Source: an uncultured Clostridia bacterium
GTDB taxonomy: Bacteria; Bacillota; Clostridia; UBA1381
NCBI GenBank assembly: GCA_947591315.1
Contig: CANQDD010000006.1
Coordinates: forward strand, 1 to 64,000
Direction of reading: 5' to 3'
Length of the DNA: 64,000 bases
The notes below the pieces were generated by a model that saw only the letters and a list, made by a program, of their open reading frames with translations, was not told the origin of the DNA and did not search any database. Numbering within the stretch: position 1 is the stretch's first letter; the number at the start of each line of letters is the position of its first letter. Positions 4,201 through 11,396 of this stretch are shown piece after piece. Both the position numbers and the translations under genes were made by a program.

Positions 4201-5070
4201 GGCAGTGGTTCCTCGTCGTACACGGTTCAGTTTGAGGCGAACGGCGGCAGCAAGGTAACATCACAAAGAATTTCGCGTAACGGCGTTGTGAAAGAGCCGA
4301 CCGCTCCGACAAAGGACGGCTATACATTCGCCGGCTGGTACACGGATAAGGATTTGACAGCCGAATATGATTTTACGTCGAAGGTTACAAAGAGCTTTAC
4401 CCTGTATGCTAAGTGGAATGATGTAAAGTCAGACGACGGAACGGAGGCAACTCCCGCGCCTACGGGCGAGCCGACAACAGAGCCGCAGGCAACGGCAAAG
4501 CCGGACGATACGGCAAAATCAATGCCGTTTACGGACGTAAATGCGGGCGATTGGTTCTACAATAACGTGCAGTATGTATACGAAAACGGGTTGATGAGCG
4601 GTGTCAGTGATACCGAGTTCGCGCCGAACGAAAACGTAACAAGAGGAATGTTTGTAACGATCCTCTATCGTATGGACGGCGAGCCGAACATGGGCGCAAG
4701 CACATTTACCGATGTTCCGTCCGACGCGTATTACGCGAACGCGGTCGCGTGGGCGAACGCGAACGGAATTGTTGAAGGCTATTCAGATACGGAGTATGCT
4801 CCCGACGATGCCGTAACGCGCGAGCAAGCCGCGGCGATACTGTTCAGATACGCGGCGTATAAAGGTGAAAGCCCGACAGGAGCATGGGCGATACGGCTCG
4901 ACTACCCCGACCTCACGGAAATTTCCGATTGGGCGGCTGAAGGTGTGATGTTCTGCACTATGAAGGATATTATGGTAGGACGCGACGGCGGAGCGTTCGA
5001 TCCAAAAGCAAATATCACCCGCGCCGAGGGCGCAGCCGTGTTTGAGCGGTATTTGAATATGGCTAAGTGA
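1219..5070 (+). CDS. SLH-domain surface protein with Ig-like modules, 3' part
   Basis: This is the C-terminal part of the protein that begins before the window. The first ATG in this frame is 1219, but it has no convincing ribosome binding site, and the frame is open and homologous back to the slip site at 1111-1117, so 1219 is probably not a real start. Order in this numbering: about seven Ig-like/MBG-type modules (1-715, recurring L-YNG-AQEL-TV and G-Y-V-V-V), a carboxypeptidase-regulatory-like beta-sandwich (735-810), a low-complexity linker, an InlB B-repeat (1001-1065, ending LYAKW), a Pro/Thr-rich linker, and three SLH domains (1102-1283, FTDV-DWFY type). SLH triplets bind pyruvylated secondary cell-wall polymers, so the protein should sit non-covalently on the cell surface. 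A terminator follows 30 nt downstream. Confidence 0.85.
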   Translation: MSAAQDQVEFFAGETSLGTATVTYNDNVAKSEGTATLNVEIDKDKYKAIQAAEGKITAEYGGSVNLNESNNSEITVTLSQKTLEYTAAATNRKYNGEKTVEVTLTPTNANGDTVTLTATGTIDDANVGDGKSVTITGVAVGGADAEYYQAAAAPTGDVTVNIEKADSTVTAPTAKTDLTYNGTTQELLATAGSATGGELQYKVDEGTYSTAAPKATTAGEHTVYYKVVENDNYNGIAEASIKVTIAKATPVFPEVGDVDGGTYTPNMKLGDVFVPEVDGGTLAWSDGNTALTAGANSVQAVFTPANSDNYEPTSITDTVTVNVAKATITGVEVQDVSVRFDETQPTKQYTLAAPTGTIEGDTVKYAEGDYNEANDSEADWQETCPSYSGEGTDKTITVKIERDNYNTLYLKATIKITKEPLITGVDVTAKADLVYNGSAQELVTVTGTSDSDTITYYVNDDSTGSTEKATGTNAGSYSVKVKVEREGHHAFEKTVEVTIAKAAIVAADVVISGDGDITHDGAAHGLTVTLGGSAEGGTVKYAEGTIMAANDTDVSWLDACSTVTDVDDTKTITVKVSKANYDDYYVTKTITITDEPTVSGITVTPYSGTYDGEAHNAVTVAGAEITDTIKYQLDGAEMQLMPQITDAGTYSVTVTVERAGYHPFTTTVEAAIAQAASTFPTVETITVTYTEGTAQYDAVFTPTDAANYTTVNGQITVTATTGTTPNPSPSPQPTFDVTGAVKNNDGTAAANRKLTLKPLGLETTTDENGNYSFDGVESGSYNIVVETSDGKTVTTLVDVTDGNVSADITLPAANVGSTVETTEGTQNTDIKVEDIVVGGLDTLAETVVNELPEEDKTKDIEVKMTVESKPEIATDTAQQAIKQQSQNKTEKLNYIDIDIVKTVGTESENVTETTNLITIVIPFVTSGKTDITVYRYHDGVAAAMTKGGTGERYEVGDGVITIYTQKFSTYAIAYNEQSASPSPTPDTGSTSRGSGSGSSSYTVQFEANGGSKVTSQRISRNGVVKEPTAPTKDGYTFAGWYTDKDLTAEYDFTSKVTKSFTLYAKWNDVKSDDGTEATPAPTGEPTTEPQATAKPDDTAKSMPFTDVNAGDWFYNNVQYVYENGLMSGVSDTEFAPNENVTRGMFVTILYRMDGEPNMGASTFTDVPSDAYYANAVAWANANGIVEGYSDTEYAPDDAVTREQAAAILFRYAAYKGESPTGAWAIRLDYPDLTEISDWAAEGVMFCTMKDIMVGRDGGAFDPKANITRAEGAAVFERYLNMAK

Positions 5071-5103
5071 GATTAAATTCGGTCATATATGAATATATTA
5101 AAA

Positions 5104-5137
5104 GACGCTATCCCCTTTTATGAGGATAGCGCCTTTT
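5104..5137 (+). terminator. Terminator of the SLH protein gene
   Basis: A ten-position stem with one mismatch (GACGCTATCC with GGATAGCGCC) is followed by TTTT. It lies 33 nt after the stop. Confidence 0.8.
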
Positions 5138-7364: not shown

Positions 7365-8381
7365 TTACCCCTCCTCAATAAAATCGGCAATACTGTTTAA
7401 TATGTACTCGGCTTTCATGCCCTCGAAATATCCGCGCGAATTTTCGCCGTTTATGCCGGTGAGCACGGCGCAGAAATCCGCGCACATCGCGCGCGCCGCA
7501 AGTATGTCCGCGCCGGCGTCACCGACTATAAGTGCGCGTTTTATCTTATCCTTGTCGTACAGTCCTTCGACTATCTTTTTATCGTCGTAATTGGTGCCGC
7601 AGAGCGCTTTCAGGAACATATACGGATGCGGCTTTGTTAGCGCGTTATTGCCGAGAGTCTTTTCAGCCGCCTCAACGTGGTCGTAGCAGCACAATCCATC
7701 GGTGGCAAAATATTTGAGCGCGCCCCAATCGGAAAGAGGTCGGAGCATTTCTATACCCGGTCTGCCCGTTCCGGTGCAGATGCGCTTGTCCAAGCTTAAA
7801 AGACGCAGGATTTCAAGCAGCGTATCTTTTGGTATTATCGGTTCTTCCTTTTCGATAAGTCCGCTTTTAAAGCCGTTTTTCGACGGTTTTCCGTTAAGTG
7901 CGTCGCCCAGAAACCACTCCTGGAACAGCCCGTGCATCTCGCGCCACATTTTGCCGTTGCGCCTTAAATCCTCCGCACTTTCGCCCGTAACTGTGGCGCA
8001 CCTTTCCGCAAGCGCGCCGTACGCGTCTATGATATTGTCGGGAAGTGTTTCCGCGTATTCGAGCGCGGCGGTGAAAATGCTGTCGTCCTCGCCGCCCGCA
8101 ATACACGCGCACAGAACGGTAACGTAACCCAAATCCCAGTTGGAGTTTACGCCCTTCGCTTTAAGCAAGCCTATCAGCTTATCGCCGCAGAAAACGCGTT
8201 CGCGTATTTTGTCCGCGCGTCGCATATACGTTTCTGTGTCAATATCCGCGCCCGCACGCATACTCATGTATTCCGCGACCGTGAGCGCCGCGCTTGTCCA
8301 GTAGTTTTCCTCACTTGTGATAACGCCGTCCATATCAAATATAACGGTGTCGTATTTGCTTAAAAATGATTTCAGCTTCAT
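7365..8381 (-). CDS. HAD-superfamily hydrolase
   Basis: A 338-residue cytoplasmic protein with the haloacid-dehalogenase catalytic motif I (FDMDGVI, nucleophile Asp followed by Asp at +2) near residue 15. The motif II Thr lies within ICTGTGRP, the motif III Lys in LTKPHPY, and the motif IV acids in ALIVGDAGADILAARAM. The long region between motifs I and II (about residues 30-190) is a large helical cap (type C1). Members are mostly phosphatases of sugar phosphates or nucleotides; the substrate is unknown. The start MKLKSFLSKY has AAGGAA eight bases upstream. A consensus promoter (8413-8442) lies between it and the RNA array, and the gene is followed after 4 nt by the hydro-lyase beta gene. 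Confidence 0.85.
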   Translation of the reverse strand: MKLKSFLSKYDTVIFDMDGVITSEENYWTSAALTVAEYMSMRAGADIDTETYMRRADKIRERVFCGDKLIGLLKAKGVNSNWDLGYVTVLCACIAGGEDDSIFTAALEYAETLPDNIIDAYGALAERCATVTGESAEDLRRNGKMWREMHGLFQEWFLGDALNGKPSKNGFKSGLIEKEEPIIPKDTLLEILRLLSLDKRICTGTGRPGIEMLRPLSDWGALKYFATDGLCCYDHVEAAEKTLGNNALTKPHPYMFLKALCGTNYDDKKIVEGLYDKDKIKRALIVGDAGADILAARAMCADFCAVLTGINGENSRGYFEGMKAEYILNSIADFIEEG

Positions 8382-8412
8382 CGTATCGTTCCTTATGCTT
8401 TGTTTCACGTAC

Positions 8413-8442: not shown

Positions 8443-8531
8443 TCGTGACGCGCATAAAAAAAGAGATACCCATTCAGACCTCCAAGATTTGCTTAAAGCA
8501 AATCCGAATATTGATAGGGTATCTCTTTAAG
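8431..8531 (-). repeat. About 100-bp terminator repeat, copy 1 (matches 9030-9130)
   Basis: Nearly identical to 9030-9130. The core hairpin 8460-8528 has perfect 12-bp arms (AAAGAGATACCC/GGGTATCTCTTT) and an inner palindrome ATTTGCTT/AAGCAAAT. On the minus strand it is followed by a run of T, so it works as the terminator of RNA unit E. Confidence 0.8.
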
Positions 8532-8609
8532 GGGGTAGAGTTGCTTTTCCAAGTTATGGTGGTTCAAAGACCACAGGCAGAAATGCCGGACTTGCGAAAA
8601 AAACTCTAT
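8456..8609 (-). ncRNA. Small RNA unit E of the tandem array
   Basis: A promoter with perfect TTGACA (8639-8644), a 17-nt spacer and TATACT (8616-8621) should start an RNA near 8609 that ends at the terminator repeat (8460-8528). The RNA can fold with closing arms AGAGTT/AACTCT. Inside is a three-way junction CAAGT / GGCA-TGCC / GTGGT-ACCAC / ACTTG. It lacks the UA/GAA loop of units A-D, so it is a different RNA using the same terminator. It has no plausible open reading frame with a ribosome binding site, and I do not recognise the family. Confidence 0.6.
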
Positions 8610-8615
8610 AAGCGC

Positions 8616-8644
8616 AGTATAACAAATCACGAGGGAAATGTCAA
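8616..8644 (-). promoter_or_regulatory. Promoter of RNA unit E
   Basis: TTGACA, 17 nt, TATACT on the minus strand. Confidence 0.8.
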
Positions 8645-8675
8645 TAAGGGTTGTCCGATTGATATGTAAGAGGGT

Positions 8676-8745
8676 AAAATATAGGACGCAGCCGAGCGAT
8701 AGAGTTCAGGATAAATCCCTAGCTCCTTCTGCCTCAACTGCGCCC
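8676..8745 (-). ncRNA. Small RNA unit A of the tandem array
   Basis: A predicted RNA of about 70 nt begins 7 nt after its -10 box. The closing stem GG-CGCAG/CTGCG-CC is interrupted by single mismatches. The inner hairpin is GAG-CUA-GGGA-loop-UCCU-GAA-CUC, with the CUA/GAA internal loop shared by units B, C and D. It ends in a weak T-rich tract (8676-8683). Confidence 0.65.
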
Positions 8746-8751
8746 GAATAT

Positions 8752-8780
8752 ACTGTATCATAGTTATTGCGGCTTGTCAA
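8752..8780 (-). promoter_or_regulatory. Promoter of RNA unit A
   Basis: TTGACA (8775-8780), 17 nt, TACAGT (8752-8757) on the minus strand. Confidence 0.75.
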
Positions 8781-8781
8781 G

Positions 8782-8848
8782 AAAAAAAATACCGCTGAGA
8801 AGTTCAGGGTTCAGCAATAACAGCTTAGCCCCATCATCTCAACGGATT
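8782..8848 (-). ncRNA. Small RNA unit B of the tandem array
   Basis: A predicted RNA of about 67 nt. The closing stem is CCGUUGAG/CUCAGCGG and the inner hairpin GGG-CUA-AGC-loop-GCU-GAA-CCC. The closing stem is followed directly by eight T (8782-8789), so the RNA body also serves as its own terminator. Confidence 0.65.
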
Positions 8849-8854
8849 GCATAT

Positions 8855-8883
8855 AACATATCATATTTATTCGTGCTTGCCAA
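8855..8883 (-). promoter_or_regulatory. Promoter of RNA unit B
   Basis: TTGGCA (8878-8883), 17 nt, TATGTT (8855-8860) on the minus strand. It is the weakest of the five array promoters. Confidence 0.6.
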
Positions 8884-8960
8884 GAAAAAAGTTTAATAAA
8901 ATGCCGTTGACAGGTACAAAGTTCAACCAAAACGGTTTAGCTTCGCTCAAGCAACGGCAT
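8884..8960 (-). ncRNA. Small RNA unit C of the tandem array
   Basis: A predicted RNA of about 75 nt with a perfect 9-bp closing stem AUGCCGUUG/CAACGGCAU (8901-8909 with 8952-8960). The inner hairpin is AAG-CUA-AACC-loop-GGUU-GAA-CUU. T-rich tracts at 8884-8900 follow the stem as terminator. The first and last bases of the stem coincide with the likely RNA ends. Confidence 0.65.
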
Positions 8961-8966
8961 GAATAT

Positions 8967-8995
8967 ACTGTATCAGATTTATTTACGCTTGTCAA
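8967..8995 (-). promoter_or_regulatory. Promoter of RNA unit C
   Basis: TTGACA (8990-8995), 17 nt, TACAGT (8967-8972) on the minus strand. Confidence 0.75.
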
Positions 8996-9029
8996 GCGTG
9001 AATTTTCAGCCTGCAAGGCAGAGGCAATA

Positions 9030-9130
9030 CGCCAGCTGTTAATCGGGGTGCGCATAAAAAAGAGATACCCATTCAGACCTCCGTAAAATGCTTAAAGCAA
9101 ATCCGAACATTGATAGGGTATCTCTTTAAG
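9030..9130 (-). repeat. About 100-bp terminator repeat, copy 2 (matches 8431-8531)
   Basis: Hairpin 9059-9127 with perfect 12-bp arms AAAGAGATACCC/GGGTATCTCTTT, followed by T on the minus strand. It is the terminator of RNA unit D. The homology to copy 1 reaches into the sequence that forms the HAD-gene -35 box there, which is degraded here. Confidence 0.8.
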
Positions 9131-9305
9131 AATTGAGTAAAGCCTTGAGCACAAATGTGTCCGGCATTATCAGCGGCAATCAGATGTAATCGGTTCGGAA
9201 AGCACTTCCCTACCCGCACCATCGGAGTTTGCCGATAACCAACGACTGAGTGCAAAGGGTTCAGGAAGTGCTTCCCTAGCCCAGTCACCTCAGCCGCTGC
9301 TGATG
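9049..9305 (-). ncRNA. Small RNA unit D of the tandem array (double hairpin)
   Basis: A predicted RNA of about 255 nt from its promoter to terminator repeat copy 2. It carries two of the shared hairpins: GGG-CUA-GGGAA-loop-UUCCU-GAA-CCC and CGG-GUA-GGGAA-loop-UUUCC-GAA-CCG. Both lie inside an outer stem of CAGCGGC (9169 region) with GCCGCUG (9290 region). The unit begins about 95 nt after the anti-sigma gene stop. No coding potential with a ribosome binding site was seen. Confidence 0.65.
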
Positions 9306-9311
9306 GGTTAT

Positions 9312-9340
9312 AGTGTATCAGAATTATTCGCGCTTGTCAA
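9312..9340 (-). promoter_or_regulatory. Promoter of RNA unit D
   Basis: TTGACA (9335-9340), 17 nt, TACACT (9312-9317) on the minus strand. Confidence 0.75.
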
Positions 9341-9400: not shown

Positions 9401-10852
9401 TTAGTGCAGTTTTACGGTTTGTGCGTTGTCATAATCAAGTTTTACGCCCTTGGGATATGTTACGGTAAGTGAGTTTATCGTCTGTTTGATTACCTCATCG
9501 TTCACGTTTTCGTCGGGAACAATGTAATATCCCGTTTCGTCGTACCCTCCGAATATGAGCCGCGCGGTGTATGAATTTGTATCGTAATGCACTCTGTCGC
9601 CATGGTCGGACATCGGGGTAATACCGTTGGGAGCAACGTTGCTGTTGTTTTCGTCGCGCAGACCGAATTTAATTCCGCTAGGTACAAATCCGTCCTTGTA
9701 ATAGTCAATGCTTACCACGCCGCCGTCTACGCGCACGTCCGTCACAACAATGCTCCCCAATCCGTCGGGCAGTTCATATCGTATCGGATAATTTCCGATT
9801 TTATGCGATATTTCGCCCGTTTCCGAGCCATCAGACAAAATCGGCACAATTTTTATTTCCTCGGTATTTGGATCCGCCTTCAGAAATTCATAGGAATTTT
9901 CCTCACCGATAACGTCTGTGTCAAGAATATCGAGCGATACGCCGTTTTCGTCAAACAACGCGACCTTCTCCGCAACATTGCCGCCGCCCGTTGTCACAAG
10001 CTGATTGCCAAACGGCGACAGAACGATTTTCTCTATTGACACGTCCATATCGGGAATATTTATGTTAGTCTGTGCCGTAACGGTCGCTTCTTTTGCGGCT
10101 TTCCTGTCTATATCTGCGGCAACGTACCATATTCTTGACTTTTCCTCGTCCGTTAAGGCACGGTTCTGAAGCTCCGTCAGGTTTATCGGATTTTCGCTGT
10201 CATGCCTGTCGGCAAGAACCTCAACCTTAATCGTATCGGGCAGGTCGGACGCGGATATATTGTATTTGTACACCGTCTTAAACGTGTACCTGTCGGCGAA
10301 ATACCCCTGTGTGCTGCTGTGGTTGCCGACAACGCTTACATCATGCTGCCCGTTTATCCTGACCTCGACCCATATTTTCTCATACGCCTTCGCGTAGGCG
10401 TTGTGACCTATCGGCTCGCTGCCCTCGTAAAACGGCTCGTCGGACGTCAGCGTGCAGAACACGTGAAGATAGTTGTCGTCGGCAGCCGCGTTGTCAAGCG
10501 TCAGCGTTATTCCGTCCTTTGTGACGCTTTCCCCGATTTGCGCACTGTATTTTGCCAGTTCCTCCGTATCGGTTATTTCGTTTACTCTGTCGTTCTGAAA
10601 ATAGCTTATGATATTGCCTATGGCTTCACGTCCCGCCGGCGACGCTGCAAACGCCGCCGCGGTGCATATTGCCGCCGCGCACGCCGCTATAAGCGAGGCT
10701 TTTAGTATTTTGTGTCGCATATACCTCTTCCTTTCCGAAGGGGCGGCGGTTATGGAAGCTGTCACTCTGCGCGTAATATCGTCCGCGCTTATTTTAAGAT
10801 CGGTGTCGGGAATACCCGTTTCCGATATAAGCTCTTTAAGTCTTTTATTCAT
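9401..10852 (-). CDS. DUF4179-type anti-sigma-like membrane protein
   Basis: A 483-residue protein. The first ~50 residues are predicted cytoplasmic and charged. One membrane segment follows (about 50-70, ILKASLIAACAAAICTAAAFAAS), then a long external region of beta-rich sequence of the DUF4179 kind. Such proteins are usually encoded directly behind a sigma-70-family factor and are thought to hold it at the membrane. The gene overlaps the sigma gene by 8 nt, and its ATG at 10852 follows GAGAGGGGG, so translation is probably coupled. The external domain could sense an envelope signal; that is inference. No terminator separates its end from the RNA array downstream. Confidence 0.75.
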   Translation of the reverse strand: MNKRLKELISETGIPDTDLKISADDITRRVTASITAAPSERKRYMRHKILKASLIAACAAAICTAAAFAASPAGREAIGNIISYFQNDRVNEITDTEELAKYSAQIGESVTKDGITLTLDNAAADDNYLHVFCTLTSDEPFYEGSEPIGHNAYAKAYEKIWVEVRINGQHDVSVVGNHSSTQGYFADRYTFKTVYKYNISASDLPDTIKVEVLADRHDSENPINLTELQNRALTDEEKSRIWYVAADIDRKAAKEATVTAQTNINIPDMDVSIEKIVLSPFGNQLVTTGGGNVAEKVALFDENGVSLDILDTDVIGEENSYEFLKADPNTEEIKIVPILSDGSETGEISHKIGNYPIRYELPDGLGSIVVTDVRVDGGVVSIDYYKDGFVPSGIKFGLRDENNSNVAPNGITPMSDHGDRVHYDTNSYTARLIFGGYDETGYYIVPDENVNDEVIKQTINSLTVTYPKGVKLDYDNAQTVKLH

Positions 10853-11396
10853 TTCCGTACCCCCTCTCAATCAAATATTCCTTTATCTTTTTGCGTCCTC
10901 TTGAAAGTCTGGATTTGACAGTCGAAGAATTAAGCCCTACCGCTTTGGCAATATCGGTTATTTTTTCCTCGTAATAGTAGTATCGGAGGAATATTTCGCT
11001 GTCGGGTTCTCCGAGCTTTTTTATAATTCCCATAAGTATTTCACGTTTCTCTTGCTCAATCGCGGCATCCTGCGGCGTTTTGTAATCGGAGATTATGCTC
11101 TCGTCCATATACTCGTACGCGCGCAGCGTACGGAGCTTGTTCTTCGCCGCGTTGCGCGCCGCTGCCGCAAGGTACGCTCTGAGACTGCCCTTGCCGCCGT
11201 CAAGTCCCGACGCGTTCCTCCAAAGCGACAGGAACACATCGCTCACGGCCTCCTCTATATCCTCGCGCGCCATGACCGCTCCGATAACGCCGTAAACGAC
11301 GACCGTCACGTACGGCGTGTAAAGCTCAATAGCTTTTTCAAGGCTCGTGTGGCTATGGCGGCGCAGTCCCGATATGAGCTTTTCCTCTTTTGTCAA
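10845..11396 (-). CDS. RNA polymerase sigma factor, sigma-70 family (ECF-like)
   Basis: A 183-residue two-domain sigma factor. Region 2 (about 20-85) includes AREDIEEAVSDVFLSLWRNA, which contacts core enzyme and the -10 element. Region 4 (about 125-180) includes the helix-turn-helix KITDIAKAVGLNSSTVKSRLSRGRKKI. The chosen start is a TTG at 11396, eight bases after GAAGGGAG; longer readings lack a usable site. It is co-transcribed with the overlapping DUF4179 protein, its probable inhibitor. A perfect palindrome lies 26 bp upstream of the start. Sequence suggests control of a small envelope-stress regulon; targets are unknown. Confidence 0.85.
   Translation of the reverse strand: MTKEEKLISGLRRHSHTSLEKAIELYTPYVTVVVYGVIGAVMAREDIEEAVSDVFLSLWRNASGLDGGKGSLRAYLAAAARNAAKNKLRTLRAYEYMDESIISDYKTPQDAAIEQEKREILMGIIKKLGEPDSEIFLRYYYYEEKITDIAKAVGLNSSTVKSRLSRGRKKIKEYLIERGYGNE

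Follow-up and report, generated by a model that had tools for sequence, protein, structure and literature searches.

A gap between an anti-sigma-type gene and a HAD gene in the genome of an uncultured gut bacterium of the Clostridia holds five small promoter-driven hairpin RNA units, and this locus raises the question of where such an array comes from and what it may do. It lies in the stretch analyzed here, called the window (64,000 nucleotides; positions 1 to 64,000 of contig CANQDD010000006.1, assembly GCA_947591315.1). The original prediction took the units as a duplicated, structured RNA family and guessed at a protein-sequestering role. We found that relatives of these units are nested antisense within phage and prophage genes for polyvalent proteins, directly past LPD3 and related domains, and this class of nested RNA is well supported by sequence comparison. 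The locus itself may be a chromosomal array of orphan effector-partner RNAs, that is, antitoxin or immunity RNAs against incoming phage effectors, a reading in which we place about even confidence.

Promoter-hairpin units of the array

The gap (9340-8455, minus strand) is flanked by the anti-sigma-type gene (9401-10870) and the HAD gene (7365-8408), both on the minus strand. It consists of five minus-strand units, A to E, each with a -35 box, exactly 17 nt, an extended -10 box preceded by TGN and a hairpin RNA. The promoters are TTGACA-17-TACACT in unit A (9340-9312), TTGACA-17-TACAGT in unit B (8995-8967), TTGGCA-17-TATGTT in unit C (8883-8855), TTGACA-17-TACAGT in unit D (8780-8752) and TTGACA-17-TATACT in unit E (8644-8616). 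All boxes were found where the original prediction had placed them, and its list of promoters, loops and flanking pairs was correct. Four of the promoter regions are 40-nt repeats with 75-80% identity to a reference copy. The count of promoter-like sites (7, compared to 3.5 ± 1.8 in shuffles) is by itself ordinary; the remarkable feature is the repeated promoter architecture rather than the number of such sites.

The RNA of unit A (9142-9305) has an outer stem around two UA/GAA hairpins, followed by a degenerate terminator hairpin (9165-9142). Its first hairpin, A1 (9243-9296), reads GGG-CUA-GGGAAG..UUCCU-GAA-CCC with the closing stem P1 formed by CAGCGGCUGAG/CUCAGUCGUUG, and the second, A2 (9183-9223), contains a GUA/GAA loop (CGG-GUA-..-GAA-CCG). 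The units B, C and D follow each other at intervals of about 105 nt and are minimal cassettes, in which promoter, self-closed hairpin RNA and U-tail are followed by the next promoter; their RNAs span 8896-8961 (core 8957-8904), 8785-8849 (core 8845-8792) and 8684-8746 (core 8740-8689), respectively. The RNA of unit E (8536-8609) has a different body (GGUCUUUGAACC) without the UA/GAA core. A terminator had been assigned to every unit. This holds for B and C, which end in a U-tail; the U-tail of D is weak (UAUAUUUUA), A has the degenerate hairpin and E lacks a U-tail of its own.

As described originally, a (C/G)UA/GAA loop whose flanks have changed yet remain paired occurs in five hairpins. Two of these lie in A and one each in B, C and D. 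The folding z-scores of units A to E range from -3.5 to -4.7. A covariance model was trained on B, C and a homologue from genome G014, with D and A held out; in the window it ranked D third and A1 fourth, behind only its own training members. The data support a duplicated, structured, promoter-driven family that has compensatory stems and is absent from Rfam, but the body of E differs and the five units are not one family.

A search of the array against Rfam 15 at gathering and relaxed thresholds gave no credible family, LhrC included at the gathering score, and blastn against phage and plasmid records gave no match. A covariance model over the family (R1) found close members only, and a weak match that was inspected (L044) had no promoter. 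A loose CTA..GAACC pattern yielded noise in the window's own genome (248 and 189 matches, compared to 195 and 217 in backward controls). Listeria LhrC1-5 are several similar small RNA genes in tandem; the array resembles them in this arrangement and differs in that no Rfam family matches it. Integron attC sites, hammerhead, kink-turn, CRISPR-repeat-like RNA anti-CRISPRs and IS200/IS605 ends we take to be poor fits.

RNA genes nested antisense in polyvalent genes

Relatives were sought with a promoter-plus-core pattern in 391 genomes of the class and in IMG/VR. True relatives were found in G370, G108, G283, G388 and one viral contig (L051), and most remaining matches were due to chance. In five genomes of one genus (G108, G142, G195, G322 and G356) a promoter is accompanied by a short repeat, TTGACAAGGCTGAAAAGATGTGGTAAACTTAAAAAGTTGCTAACGTAGGGACTAGGGAATAGGAACT, with no more than three copies per genome; although picked up by the pattern, this repeat looks unrelated to the UA/GAA RNAs.

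In L051, G108 and G014 the unit lies antisense within a long open reading frame (ORF). The viral ORF in L051 encodes 4012 aa with, in Pfam order, MuF_C, LPD3 (aa 2148-2242), the unit (about aa 2260-2291) and ART-PolyVal (aa 2308-2474). The three host ORFs are phage polyvalent proteins, a class described by Iyer et al. (2017; PMC5512222), who leave LPD3 without an assigned function. Such proteins presumably enter the cell together with the phage DNA, and toxins are predicted for several of their domains (PMC5512222). The nested RNA gene has a strong promoter, a self-closed hairpin of about 60-90 nt, an internal loop conserved per domain subtype and a U-tail. It lies on the opposite strand of the same reading frame, directly past the domain, and overlaps the 3' edge of the domain rather than the start site. 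Nearly all nested promoters stand in one codon phase (e.g. L102 7606-7634 and L147 9656-9684), and further RNA bodies, with a CCGCCGUUUGGCGG core and others, are nested after domains in L134 (5153 and 5306) and L102 (7811 and 5007-5116).

We then carried out a test without RNA ASCERTAINMENT, in which host genes were gathered by protein criteria alone and the antisense unit was scored afterwards. An antisense promoter and hairpin stood about 100-275 nt past the domain in 45 of 52 LPD3 genes found in this way, with a spacer of nearly always 17 nt. This total is composed of 20/22 in genomes of the class, 4/6 in viral contigs, 8/8 in further genomes and 13/16 in viral contigs of a second subgroup. 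The 391 genomes contain 22 PF18798 (LPD3) domains, and 20 of these are followed, 122-275 nt beyond their end, by an extended -10 promoter in antisense orientation that precedes a self-folding hairpin; the spacer is 17 nt in 19 of these promoters and 18 nt in one. At the same offset no sense-strand promoter was found past LPD3, and the ART-PolyVal control had no antisense unit (0/8). Stand-alone PBECR3 proteins also had none (0/7), and PBECR3 within polyvalent proteins and MuF_C showed a unit in 2/3 and 2/4 cases, respectively.

For the LPD3 subgroup with UA/GAA RNAs, protein alignment on viral contigs found the unit in all four new distinct close relatives and in neither of two distant ones. 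On named genome contigs (Clostridia, Oscillospiraceae and Monoglobus metagenome-assembled genomes) all nine relatives had a unit; among these nine, L161 is the already counted G108, and L163 and L164 carry an identical unit. The second LPD3 subgroup on viral contigs (some of 57-59% GC) had the unit in 13/16 cases, and its -10 extension is not always there. A scan of viral sequences with A13 (LPD3b) found no relatives.

The type of RNA follows the type of domain. GGGCAAUUGGAGCCC is common to the MuF_C units of G034 and G419, GUCUUGA(AC) behind a hairpin recurs in units of the second LPD3 subgroup, and the body of unit E accompanies an unnamed LPD3-like domain. Because RNA and domain are linked, shared descent alone would give some of this agreement; the orphan arrays are the stronger argument.

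Constraint on the RNA itself is suggested by 22 UA/GAA RNAs. CUA is present in all, with GAA in 20 and AAA in 2; this parse demanded CUA and either GAA or AAA. The RNAs of protein-found genes were gathered without that condition, and CUA/(G/A)AA is kept in 12/12 of them in the LPD3 subgroup that matches the window array. The closing stem P1 has 19 distinct sequences with 114/114 cells paired, whereas 2000 shuffles that ignore relatedness averaged 50.5 and reached 71 at most; P1 was picked as the longest pairing, which favours this score. The loop determines where P3 lies, and 31/33 of its cells are paired against a maximum of 30 in shuffles that likewise ignore relatedness. P2 exists in four forms only and carries little information.

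A coding-family match had been set beforehand as evidence against the RNA family, and one was found on the opposite strand in the relatives, where the units lie antisense in polyvalent genes. Coding fails as an explanation, since the stems covary, the promoter spacing is fixed, unit A of the window has no long ORF on its opposite strand and cassettes free of LPD3 exist.

Orphan units and their possible function

We define an LPD3-partner RNA by an antisense promoter, with an extended -10 and 17 nt between the boxes, and a self-closed hairpin with a CUA(GUA)/GAA loop between P2 and P3. Units A to D have these features, and E and the further element T (described below) are other bodies of the same architecture. 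Each unit of the window matches a nested RNA above all shuffles: A matches that of L159, after LPD3 (69/71 over the first hairpin), B the LPD3 RNA of G014 (L105; 52/70), C the LPD3 RNA of G108 (L102; 57/62), D the RNA in viral L051 (47/54; the core is common and the closing stem different but paired) and E that of G034 (L148; 61/71), the nested RNA of G005 (L147) matching E too. No LPD3 domain was detected in the window genome (G000), which is 85% complete, and the E-type domain was not detected there either in a search without an internal positive control.

The presence of these units differs among relatives. In congeneric genomes the orthologous anti-sigma/HAD gap is empty in G005, holds E and T in G008 and G009 and a different body with T in G011; the relatives thus have 0-2 elements at this site, compared to five units in the window genome. 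Unit A also occurs elsewhere, at 87% identity in G006 and nearly identical over the RNA in G370, which belongs to another family of the class. Since it recurs there beside unrelated flanks, the units move as cassettes. G370 has a larger array (L101 7011-9174) of about nine promoter-hairpin units; at least six match nested RNAs that differ in type and belong to several polyvalent genes, and this genome gave no LPD3 hit. In G006 (L029/L106, G006:C25) the sequence CGTCCGTACCATAGAACAAAAGAGCGGCG follows an A-type unit and has an inverted copy about 4.5 kb away beside other units; these copies are possibly mobile-element ends.

The window genome thus has cognate elements without detected effector genes. 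In polymorphic toxin systems, orphan immunity arrays are series of immunity cassettes of differing specificity without their toxins. To our knowledge the orphan immunities described are proteins; the arrays here are alike as cassette series without toxins and differ in being RNAs.

Phages and prophages carry LPD3 and related domains in polyvalent proteins, which are giant and presumably injected with the DNA. We propose that each nested RNA, if transcribed, would bind and neutralize the adjoining effector domain as a type-III-like RNA antitoxin or immunity RNA, so that a lysogen making the effector would be shielded from it. Copies of these RNAs, but not the effector genes, would have been acquired by the host chromosome and placed in series as an array that confers immunity to incoming phages. 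The domain-specific structure, the constitutive-looking promoters and the effector-free host arrays argue for such an antidote. The broader statement that phage effectors bring antisense RNA antidotes, which bacteria collect as heritable RNA immunity arrays against a range of effectors, we advance tentatively and at somewhat less than even confidence. Among the readings offered originally, protein sequestering fits the data best, although sequestration would still be a presumed activity, and the nested antisense origin had been missed.

In type III systems the antitoxin consists of short tandem repeats that precede the toxin gene on its own strand and share its transcript (PMC4147584). The likeness to type III systems (ToxIN, CptIN, TenpIN, AbiQ/antiQ) lies in a structured RNA that is here proposed to sequester an effector, in an RNA with its own terminator and in a phage-host conflict. 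The difference lies in the arrangement: one antisense RNA gene, driven by a promoter of its own, stands within the reading frame of the effector. Each RNA comprises one or two hairpins and is located past the domain in the ORF that encodes it. By operon architecture the array is not a type III member, but it may work like one.

Phage polyvalent proteins and MuF polymorphic toxins (PMC5512222; Jamet 2017, PMC5576092) are the products of the genes in which the nested RNAs lie (LPD3, MuF_C, PBECR3, ART-PolyVal). A term search of these two papers gave no mention of antisense RNA in such genes, and no paper on RNAs nested antisense within polyvalent or MuF genes was found in the open-licence PMC literature (preprints excluded). 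The match of all five units to RNAs nested behind one kind of effector domain suggests an RNA-based antidote system that has not been described before. LPD3 and many polyvalent domains have been without assigned function since their description in 2017, and a domain-specific RNA offers each a testable partner. If our proposal is true, an RNA gene antisense in the effector's own frame would be a new gene architecture overlooked by gene finders and Rfam, and orphan RNA arrays that record past phage effectors would possibly form a new class of bacterial immunity. A genome-wide scan is feasible by the signature of an antisense 17-nt-spaced extended -10 promoter and hairpin about 100-275 nt past the domain.

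Several observations weigh against the antidote proposal. The unit is missing in 7 of 52 LPD3 genes and 2 of 4 MuF_C, hence it is not obligatory, and LPD3 of the Pseudomonas Hollowayvirus phages H66, PA8 and D14S (outside the 52) has no antisense unit; the antisense-unit rule for LPD3 is not universal. LPD3 has no known activity, whereas the toxin of type III systems is an endoribonuclease. Comparison by hhalign with PBECR3 and MuF_C gave a probability below 1%, and membership in the BECR RNase fold was not demonstrated; the AlphaFold (AF2) model of the LPD3 subgroup has a mean pLDDT of 46, and no PDB relative was found. LPD3 may possibly have been missed in the incomplete window genome. The codon phase of the nested promoters yields a linker peptide, I-S-x5-V-(K/N), past the domain, which may have a protein-level role such as processing.

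The remaining alternatives rank about in the order of antisense silencing, selfish cassettes and ribonucleoprotein cargo. In antisense control, the nested RNA would pair with the effector mRNA and chromosomal copies would silence incoming phage mRNA. Such control resembles type I systems in having an antisense RNA that overlaps a toxin-type gene. Their position gives the nested units perfect complementarity to the effector mRNA, and in the window, A and C retain 97% and 92% identity to nested units, respectively. This complementarity is not conserved in diverged orphans such as D, which shares little outside the core with its nearest nested unit. Unlike in type I systems, structure is conserved here rather than sequence complementarity, and orphan copies lie far from the gene; fully diverged stems with the internal loop and pairing kept are the reverse of what target pairing needs, and what the units overlap is the domain's 3' edge, away from a start site. 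We consider this explanation unlikely.

A selfish or neutral promoter-hairpin-terminator cassette, settling in tolerant linkers and gaps like in-frame palindromic repeats, would leave the window array as a relic. The presence or absence of units at one site among relatives and the near-identical A units in distant genomes would be expected from it. One fixed site behind one domain class, subtype-specific cores, the nearly fixed 17-nt spacing and intact stems indicate non-random insertion, and we give this view little credence. It is also doubtful that the RNA serves the polyvalent domain as cofactor or cargo, injected as a ribonucleoprotein, with the chromosomal copies being decoys or by-products: the tight linkage of domain and RNA and the domain-specific RNA cores agree with this, but it would not need orphan arrays in genomes without LPD3. 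Finally, conservation at the protein level only, with the linker past LPD3 encoding a peptide FSxxSLAP...ISxxxxxVK (e.g. a cleavage site) and the RNA features as by-products, accords with a unit in an open frame and one codon phase whose nested core reads on the other strand as codons for F-S..S-L-A, but is very improbable because it predicts no compensatory or paired stems, 17-nt spacing between -35 and -10, U-tails or ORF-free cassettes such as unit A.

Element T

Two copies of a 75-bp element, T, lie on the minus strand of the window and are 92% identical. The first (9056-9127) follows unit A and has a strong hairpin and a U-run; the second (8457-8528) follows unit E and supplies its terminator. 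The same hairpin family is present in L036 (2523-2626), and T RNAs also occur in G006, G008, G009, G011 and G024. No partner domain for T was found among the polyvalent genes searched. T closes the arrays in G000, G006, G008, G009 and G011. The homologue in G024 is solitary, with its own TTGACA-17-TATACT promoter, and stands upstream of a gene identified by eye as fibronectin-binding/RqcH-like.
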